Source: Microcaldota archaeon
GTDB taxonomy: Archaea > Micrarchaeota > Micrarchaeia > Norongarragalinales > JACRGE01
Direction: 5' to 3'
Assembly (NCBI GenBank): GCA_016212465.1
Contig: JACRGE010000020.1
Coordinates: 1-44,252, forward strand
DNA: 44,252 nt
The position numbers and the translations under genes are program-made. This document shows positions 983-2,605 of this stretch, piece after piece (positions within the stretch are counted from its first letter, which is position 1; each line of letters opens with the position of its first letter). The notes beneath the pieces were generated by a model. It did no database searches and was not told where the DNA came from. It was given only the letters and a program-made list of their open reading frames with translations.

Positions 983-1196
983 CGGGCTCGGCGCGAGTGG
1001 CGGACACTTTTCAAAAATGACTGGAGAAAGCGTCTTTCGAATTCGCGATCCAGACGAACCTACGGTTCTTTCTATTCTCCCTTTCGAGCAAGAGTTCTTT
1101 TCTCTCCCTAGGGTCTCTTTTCTTACAAGAAAAGAGAGGCTACGCGCGACCGTCCGGTTAAGAGCCGGATGCTCTGCCAAGCTGAGCTACGAGCCC
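983..1196 (-). tRNA. tRNA-Lys (anticodon CTT) interrupted in the T-loop by about 140 nt (noncanonical intron(s) or disruption)
   Basis: Minus strand GGGCTCG-TA-GCTC..GAGC-A-TCCGG-CTCTTAA-CCGGA-CGGTC-GCGCG, then 147 nt, then CGCGC-CGAGCCC-G. Acceptor (7 bp) and T stem (5 bp) both complete. Confidence 0.7.
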
Positions 1197-1578: not shown

Positions 1579-2097
1579 ATGACCCGGAAACGAGCGCCCC
1601 CCTTGATTTTTTTAGAATCATATATTGATGAAATAGCGGGCAAGCGCGGGGTAAAAATCGTTGAATGTATTGGTGATGGTGCAACAGACGAACGAATTGA
1701 ACAAAAAACCAGCATAAAGATTGCTGAAATCCGGTCAATCCTCAACCACCTGCACAGTTATGGAATTGTTGATTATGTAAGGGAAAAAAACCTTTCTAGT
1801 GGATGGTTTACGTATACTTGGCGCCTTTGCCTTGATCGGGCTTTGCAAAACCTATTGCTTGTGAAAAAAAGGGAATACGAGCGATTAAAAAATAAATTGG
1901 ATTTTGGGGTGGGTTACAATATATACTGCTGCAAAAAAGGCTGTATGGAAATTGAATTTGATGCGGCAATGGAGAATAGATTCCGTTGCATGAAGTGTGG
2001 CGGGGTTTTGACACAAATAGATCGACAAGTGGAAATGAAGGAGTTGGAAGAAAAGATAAACATCATCGAAAAGATAATTAACAACAAAACATACTAG
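1579..2097 (+). CDS. tfe: Transcription initiation factor E subunit alpha (TFE)
   Basis: N-terminal winged helix, C-terminal zinc ribbon (CCKKGC...CMKCGG) and terminal helix; TFE architecture. Confidence 0.8.
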   Translation: MTRKRAPPLIFLESYIDEIAGKRGVKIVECIGDGATDERIEQKTSIKIAEIRSILNHLHSYGIVDYVREKNLSSGWFTYTWRLCLDRALQNLLLVKKREYERLKNKLDFGVGYNIYCCKKGCMEIEFDAAMENRFRCMKCGGVLTQIDRQVEMKELEEKINIIEKIINNKTY

Positions 2098-2106
2098 TTA
2101 TTGTTT

Positions 2107-2213
2107 AGCGGGGTAGGGTAGCTAGGAGTGCCCGCTGGGCTCATAACCCGGAGACCGGTGGTTCAAAGATTCGGCTTTTAATAAGCTCATTGTTGAGAGT
2201 CCACCCCCCGCTA
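2107..2213 (+). tRNA. Initiator tRNA-Met (CAT) with a 32-nt intron in the T-loop (position 59/60)
   Basis: AGCGGGG/CCCCGCT acceptor with A1:U72, anticodon stem CTGGG-CTCATAA-CCCGG with three G:C pairs, T stem GGTGG/CCACC. T-loop TTCAAA[2168-2199]T gives TTCAAAT when spliced. Confidence 0.9.
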
Positions 2214-2284: not shown

Positions 2285-2605
2285 TTATGTTGTGGGTTTT
2301 CTGTACCTATATGAATATGGTAGGGGCTTTTCTGGCTCAGCTTCCACTTCCTCCGTTGGTTGACTCTGTACTGAAGGAGAGATTATCACAATTTTTTCAA
2401 CTGCCTTTACACTTTTGTACATGATTGTTTTTTCCCTGAAAATCCTTTTCGCTTCATCCTTGCTTGCTACCTTGATTGGCTCTAGTGTAAGTCTAATGAT
2501 TTCTCCCTTCTGCAGGTCCAGTATGACATCATAGATTTTTCCTATATACTGTGCGTTATCAGTATAAACATCCATTCCAAGCAATTGTGAGATTCTTGTA
2601 GCCAT
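2285..2605 (-). CDS. PRC-barrel domain protein
   Basis: MATRISQLLGMDVYTDNAQYIGKIYDVILDLQKGEIIRLTLEP pattern. Confidence 0.7.
   Translation of the reverse strand: MATRISQLLGMDVYTDNAQYIGKIYDVILDLQKGEIIRLTLEPIKVASKDEAKRIFREKTIMYKSVKAVEKIVIISPSVQSQPTEEVEAEPEKPLPYSYRYRKPTT

Follow-up and report, generated by a model that had tools for sequence, protein, structure and literature searches.

A tRNA-Lys(CTT) gene of a Micrarchaeota archaeon with two probable T-arm introns, and a mirror-symmetric element in the first of them

Described introns and triplexes, and the locus compared with them

Archaeal tRNA genes can carry non-canonical introns, which have BHB motifs, depend on EndA and RtcB, and are known at tRNA positions 53/54, 56/57 and 59/60, as described by Yoshihisa (2014, PMC4090602). 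The gene considered here is a tRNA-Lys(CTT) of a Micrarchaeota archaeon (contig JACRGE010000020.1; the window is the whole stretch of 44,252 nucleotides that was analysed). It resembles the described cases in intron positions, in BHB layout, in the occurrence of several introns per tRNA and in the broad-specificity type of the endonuclease. The differences lie in the T arm, interrupted in 10 of the 12 best genes, in the 6-nt exon between two introns, and in an element found in most T-arm introns, which is built of a pyrimidine strand (Y), a purine strand (R1) and a mirror copy of the latter (R2) and is called Y-R-R below. A large-scale transposition of introns has been described in Thermoproteales (Fujishima 2010, as cited in PMC4090602 and PMC4033280). 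Near-identical intron cores are likewise seen here at differing positions of differing tRNAs. In contrast, the present case comes from another phylum, has a defined structural core, and extends to 16S rRNA, to the 23S rRNA of another genome (G133) and outside RNA genes.

The three-unit (epsilon2) splicing endonuclease of ARMAN-2 (4fz2; PMC6379350, PMC12397907) has the catalytic residues Y236, H251 and K282, and its type is described as cleaving relaxed BHB motifs (PMC6379350). A splicing endonuclease of 385 aa is encoded in the present genome. It matches ARMAN-2 EndA in full length (phmmer E 3.5e-128 to 4fz2, over residues 12-385) and keeps the catalytic triad, with Y234, H249 and K280 at the three ARMAN-2 places. 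Its nearest relatives are almost all labelled Micrarchaeota, the closest one (L061) being 80% identical, and RtcB is also encoded (E 3.4e-176). Cutting of relaxed BHB motifs by the three-unit type would suit the second Lys-CTT intron; compared with the ARMAN-2 enzyme, the activity of the present one on substrates of the Lys-CTT type is predicted from its sequence.

The Y-R-R element also resembles the class II triplex sequences BoxC/TMECO (Holder 2015, PMC4666352), in which Y, R and mirror R lie on one strand and the second purine strand is antiparallel to the first. It differs from them in being A/T-rich rather than G/C-rich, in having a covarying cap (XZ:z'x') and in lying, in this genome, mostly in RNA-gene introns. 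The strand order of this class is found in Lys-CTT intron 1, with a mirror of 11/11, and the 8-nt linker of the element is longer than the loop of 1-6 nt in the search definition of the ITxF database (PMC4666352). No prior report of T-arm introns in Micrarchaeota, or of tRNA introns that contain mirror or triplex elements, was found in titles and abstract openings, subscription papers and preprints aside. The Lys-CTT gene is a known intron kind in an extreme setting, and the Y-R-R element is one for which no earlier report was found.

The tRNA-Lys(CTT) gene and its splicing

The gene lies on the minus strand (1196..983) and can be read directly as GGGCTCG-TA-GCTC...GAGC-A-TCCGG-CTCTTAA-CCGGA-CGGTC-GCGCG, followed by 147 nt and then by CGCGC-CGAGCCC-G. 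The acceptor (GGGCTCG/CGAGCCC), D, anticodon and T (GCGCG/CGCGC) stems are all perfect, and the anticodon loop is CTCTTAA. The two T-stem strands stand 147 nt apart, where a 7-nt T loop is expected. This reading bears out an earlier note on the same DNA, which had described closed acceptor and T stems around a 147-nt loop; the TTCGAA-containing stretch that it had pointed out in the insert, GATCGCGAATTCGAAAGACGC, is indeed there. The Rfam tRNA model gives only a broken match (25.7 bits for a cut-off of 29), and ARAGORN calls no tRNA on the intact window. A half-tRNA covariance model reaches 51.7 bits (E 5.3e-10) on exon 1, this gene being among the 23 sequences from which the model was built.

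Table 1. Parts of the tRNA-Lys(CTT) gene, of its first intron and of the nearby tRNA-Met(CAT), in window positions
Feature	Position	Strand	Basis or details
Exon 1, tRNA positions 1-53 (acceptor 5' strand, D arm, CTT anticodon arm, variable loop, T-stem 5' strand GCGCG)	1143-1196	-	sequence; half-tRNA covariance model; ARAGORN on joined exons
Putative intron 1, 101 nt, at 53/54	1042-1142	-	BHB: central helix CGCG:CGCG, bulges CG|T and AA|T, inner helix AGCC:GGAT with 3/4 pairs
Putative exon 2 (mini-exon), positions 54-59, TTCGAA	1036-1041	-	exon joining, BHB phase ranking
Putative intron 2, 39 nt, at 59/60	997-1035	-	inner helix GACGC:GTGTC in register; bulges AA|A and AC|T; central TTCG/CGCC with 2/4 pairs (relaxed)
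Exon 3, positions 60-73, TCGCGCCGAGCCCG	983-996	-	exon joining
5' flank of element, XZ=TA then GCC; TA pairs with linker TA	1138-1142	-	mirror-hairpin scan
Pyrimidine strand Y, TCTCTTTTCTT	1127-1137	-	mirror-hairpin scan
Purine strand R1, AAGAAAAGAGA, pairs with Y via 2-nt loop GT	1114-1124	-	mirror-hairpin scan
8-nt linker, CCCTAGGG	1106-1113	-	mirror-hairpin scan; control register slides
Purine strand R2, AGAGAAAAGAA, exact mirror of R1, 11/11	1095-1105	-	mirror-hairpin scan
tRNA-Met(CAT)	2107-2213	+	exons 2107-2167 and 2200-2213; 32-nt intron 2168-2199 at 59/60, central helix TTCA:TGAG, 4/4

When the three exons are joined, a sequence of 74 nt is obtained, which ARAGORN calls tRNA-Lys (ctt), with the T loop TTCGAAT. 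A single T-loop intron was ruled out, since no single-junction candidate yields TTCRANY, as the earlier note had already claimed. A split or permuted tRNA was also rejected, the three exons lying in order within 214 nt. The TTCGAA piece on its own is no evidence, since 2858 of 3000 dinucleotide-shuffled inserts also allow a valid two-intron T loop. When BHB geometry is scored, with the best-scoring phase taken at each junction, 18 of the 3000 insert shuffles reach the observed 13/16 pairs. Intron 1 has both bulges and a complete 4-bp central helix. The register, bulges and inner helix of intron 2 fit a BHB, and its central helix, with 2/4 pairs, is the weakest of 22 junctions.

A variant keeps intron 1 and the mini-exon and places the second junction at 57/58 or 58/59, which leads to the acceptable loop TTCGACT. 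With the junction at 58/59 the intron is likewise 39 nt long and the loop conforms to TTCRANY; this phase was ranked second, and by reading the same product is obtained at 57/58. However, the in-register inner helix GACGC:GTGTC is longer at 59/60, and the resulting TTCGAAT is the loop of two intact Lys-CTT relatives; such a shifted junction appears unlikely. The Lys-CTT gene is probably a working tRNA gene with two archaeal BHB introns, at 53/54 and 59/60, around a 6-nt exon. This reading is retained because of the BHB geometry and of the sister genes described below (Arg-CCT in this genome and Glu in genome G039), and not because of TTCGAA alone. Of the three options that the earlier note had considered, the first, two introns flanking a TTCGA(A) mini-exon, is thus the one backed.

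The gene could also be a dead copy, broken by the insertion of a repeat element, with the AAG codons read by tRNA-Lys(TTT). A Lys-TTT gene with an intact T loop (L001) is present in the genome, and Lys-CTT may be dispensable because this other tRNA could read AAG codons; moreover, the element within intron 1 is a dispersed repeat and the central helix of intron 2 is poor. Against this stand the four perfect stems, the full tRNA formed by the joined exons, the complete central helix of intron 1, and the same kind of interruption in most other tRNAs of the genome, among them three Ala genes and, at a distance of 0.9 kb, tRNA-Met(CAT). Interruption cannot mean gene death here, because most tRNAs of the genome are interrupted alike, and a dead gene is considered quite improbable. 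An intact Lys-CTT copy elsewhere, which the earlier note had named, along with the lack of mature Lys-CTT, as the sign of a pseudogene, was not found in the 91%-complete assembly, where the D-arm/anticodon pattern retrieves only the present gene. A self-splicing, group I-like intron is more improbable by far. Archaeal group I introns are on record (PMC6125680), but the borders of the insert fit BHB motifs, no Rfam family passes its threshold in the window, and the only credible match at positions 900-2300, at E up to 10, is the tRNA itself. A group I intron, or another known RNA family, was ruled out by these Rfam covariance models, which gave no match.

The splicing of Lys-CTT, and the order of its two excisions, can be proposed as follows. 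In the precursor, the CGCG near the end of the T-stem 5' strand would pair with the CGCG closing intron 1, which would form the first BHB. On either side of this motif, the three-unit endonuclease would cut behind the second base of the bulge, and the ends would be joined by RtcB. Removal of intron 1 would free GCGCG to pair with CGCGC, which would create a second, relaxed BHB across the T stem, to be cut likewise. The T loop TTCGAAT would be the product of both excisions.

T-arm interruption in the genome and in the order

The second T-loop-interrupted tRNA that the earlier note had mentioned nearby is tRNA-Met(CAT) (Table 1), presumably the initiator (A1-U72). The tRNA neighbours in the window code for a TFIIE-alpha family protein (1579-2097, plus strand) and a PRC-barrel protein (2285-2605, minus strand). 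At E up to 0.012, the tRNA 5'-half model finds 12 clear tRNAs in the assembly, 4 of them among the 23 model-building sequences. By reading, the T arm of these 12 best-scoring 5' halves is interrupted in 10 and uninterrupted in Lys-TTT and Thr-GGT. T-arm introns break a sequence often targeted by integrating elements. Because the T arms are interrupted, a tRNA search sees almost no tRNA in this genome, the Rfam cut-off being passed at only 3 places. At E 0.01, 5 Rfam tRNA matches are obtained here, versus 13 to 38 in 19 genomes from the other families of the order.

In these other families, the D-arm/anticodon pattern retrieves 12 Lys-CTT genes, of which 8 have an intact T loop and the other 4 an intron within it. 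Of the 6 Arg-CCT genes retrieved, 4 are intact and 2 have an intron; the junction test on relatives covered 56/57 onward, and their lack of a 53/54 intron was read from the sequences. Since intact genes prevail in the other families, the heavy load of T-arm introns is a trait of the family of this genome and not of the order. The lineage-wide feature suggested by the earlier note thus holds for this genome, and only in part for the lineage.

Several sister genes share the junctions of Lys-CTT. In this genome, the 53/54 central helix is CGCG:CGCG in Lys, CGCG:TGCG in Arg-CCT, CCCG:CGGG in Glu and CCCG:TGGG in a tRNA on contig C45, while Thr-CGT has a 53/54 junction with CGGG:ACCG (3/4 pairs). 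The double arrangement, 53/54 plus 59/60, is also found in Arg-CCT of this genome. The Glu gene of G039, a genome of another family (f15), has the 53/54 helix CCCG:CGGG, a TTCAAA mini-exon and then a 59/60 intron. When 22 T-arm introns from 20 tRNAs of the genome are taken together, their central helices form 83/88 pairs (G-U counted) and 18/22 are complete, a score inflated by the choice of the best phase; the 20 tRNAs are those in which both T-stem strands could be placed, several having been found through the Y-R-R element itself. When intron ends are dealt out among the introns, the mean falls to 45.1 pairs and 0 of 20000 deals are as good, a control which keeps the chosen phases and is thus only a partial correction. 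These statistics used a single 59/60 junction for one Ala gene (L006) and one Asn gene (L008), though two-intron readings ranked first for them; for intron 2 of Arg-CCT, where 58/59 and 59/60 are tied, the latter was taken.

A further observation concerns the intact Lys-TTT gene. Right after it comes a copy of the Arg-GCG T-arm intron and 3' exon, near-identical over ~80 nt (L001:955-1050 versus L007:1555-1640). It may stem from duplication, from recombination or from a join made in assembly.

The Y-R-R mirror element and its possible fold

The hairpin seen in the insert by the earlier note is present, with 11 bp and a 2-nt loop instead of the 10 bp given there. The note had not recognised that this hairpin is part of the mirror-symmetric Y-R-R element. 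In intron 1 the order is TA-GCC-TCTCTTTTCTT-GT-AAGAAAAGAGA-CCCTAGGG-AGAGAAAAGAA. The constant core can be written XZ-GCC-Y-loop-R1-CCC-z'x'-GGG-R2, where Y and R1 form a stem, XZ and z'x' pair as the cap, and R2 is R1 in mirror order. Among 92 Y-R hairpins in the examined stretches of this genome (both strands counted), a perfect mirror copy of R1 lies downstream in 34 and a perfect direct copy in 3, with none of either kind upstream. A strand switch by direct repeat in place of mirror was rejected on these counts (3 versus 34); n-1 matches are 19 versus 39, direct ones being common at this level because the purine strands are A-rich. In another genome of the order's other families (G016), the T-loop intron of Lys-CTT also has a Y-R hairpin and a mirror purine strand, the latter dozens of bases off behind further hairpins.

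Elements were collected by a rule (Y preceded by NNGCC, at least 6 paired bases, CCC-YN-GGG flanked by purines) that requires neither mirror nor cap, and that was fixed before the output of the phylum-wide search was read. For the 29 elements of this genome, mirror identity is 0.958 with a linker of 8 and falls to 0.42-0.54 for linkers of 4-7 and 9-12, and the cap XZ:z'x' pairs in 29/29, with five different pairs (shuffle mean 9.1). In 38 later copies from other genomes, mirror identity is 0.900 at linker 8, the off-register values (linkers 4-7 and 9-12) being 0.41-0.55 over own and later copies. The cap pairs in 33 of these 38 (34 with G-U; shuffle mean 9.0, 0/20000), which leaves 5 without Watson-Crick pairing, or 4 if G-U is allowed. 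XZG has two mutually exclusive alternatives, pairing with the linker or, in some introns, the BHB inner helix.

The element pattern occurs in 41 of 301 Micrarchaeota genomes, this one included, with 27 copies here and 22 in G133; the reversed pattern gave 0 in both. Read by eye, the contexts of the 27 matches here place 23 of them within tRNA or 16S rRNA sequence, each in sense orientation; of the rest, 3 have no recognised RNA gene around them and 1 is in a stretch of contig C94. This last stretch (C94:7118) reads, with the element removed, like part of a structured RNA, perhaps RNase P RNA; Rfam gave no match there. A sense copy is present in 16 of the 20 T-arm inserts, the 4 without one including the tRNA-Met of the window, and the only antisense match among the 20 is weak and overlaps a sense copy. 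A 23S gene of G133 also carries the element. Of the 71 pattern matches in the foreign stretches examined, many without hairpin look like chance and several are in coding sequence. The element is not confined to introns: in other families, copies are also found immediately behind stop codons or tRNA ends, and G133 has some that apparently lie within protein genes. Six copies in other Micrarchaeota begin a few bases from an apparent stop codon or tRNA 3' end, on the same strand, where a role in 3'-end protection or termination would make sense; two copies of G133 (L234, L237) lie seemingly within protein-coding sequence. A virus-borne element was set aside after a scan of viral contigs with one exact element pattern, which gave no match.

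Different tRNAs can share nearly the same intron core: the 53/54 intron of Lys does so with a D-loop intron in L148, and the 59/60 intron of Arg-GCG with the 58/59 intron of Leu. Moving introns would be expected to leave such copies. Intron 1 is a member of a short repeat family spread through the tRNA and 16S rRNA introns of the genome, and we infer that intron copies have moved between genes. The rRNA introns share this element family, because the 16S inserts hold mirror elements of the same kinds. On contig C63 (~4.3-5.4 kb), a 16S rRNA gene has several inserts bearing mirror elements, with linkers CCCTNGGG and CCTNNACT. Nested insertion is also seen, with a mirror element inside the hairpin loop of another, in Arg-CCT intron 1 and at a second locus (L157).

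A three-stranded fold of the element, Y:R1*R2, is proposed because the mirror order is what a purine-motif helix of this kind needs. R2 would lie antiparallel to R1 in the major groove, with A*A-U and G*G-C triples, and the strands would enter through a junction made of GCC, CCC and GGG. However, RNA is reported not to form purine-motif triplexes (PMC4666352, which cites Semerad and Maher 1994), and for this reason the fold with three strands may exist at the DNA level, or its proposal may be wrong. Either the element acts as DNA, or an RNA triplex is possible with the cap, or the mirror serves a protein. As DNA, it would fold into an intrastrand triplex of class II (purine motif), like that of E. 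coli BoxC, which would aid the movement of a mobile element or pause replication, the location of the Y-R-R element in introns being that of a tolerated insertion. This would agree with the formation of such triplexes in DNA and reportedly not in RNA (PMC4666352), and with the copies of other Micrarchaeota beside stop codons or seemingly inside protein genes. The sense-strand bias described above, in tRNA and 16S genes and in T-arm inserts, argues against it, 4 of the 27 matches here being outside recognised RNA genes, although the need for splicing might alone account for this bias. A role in DNA is considered a serious contender, somewhat short of an even chance. An RNA purine-motif triple helix at the element is possible, with the balance tilted further against it.

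A tentative and rather doubtful proposal is that Micrarchaeota hold a mobile class of tRNA and rRNA introns defined by an RNA triplex (Y:R1*R2, about one turn) with a covarying strand-exchange cap, with which almost every tRNA of one family would be riddled in its T arm. With nearly all examined tRNAs needing T-arm splicing, this genome tests the spread of introns under a broad-specificity endonuclease. The mirror element would in turn provide a large natural set of sequences where a triplex predicts the base order, which would make the RNA purine triplex, long doubted, directly testable.
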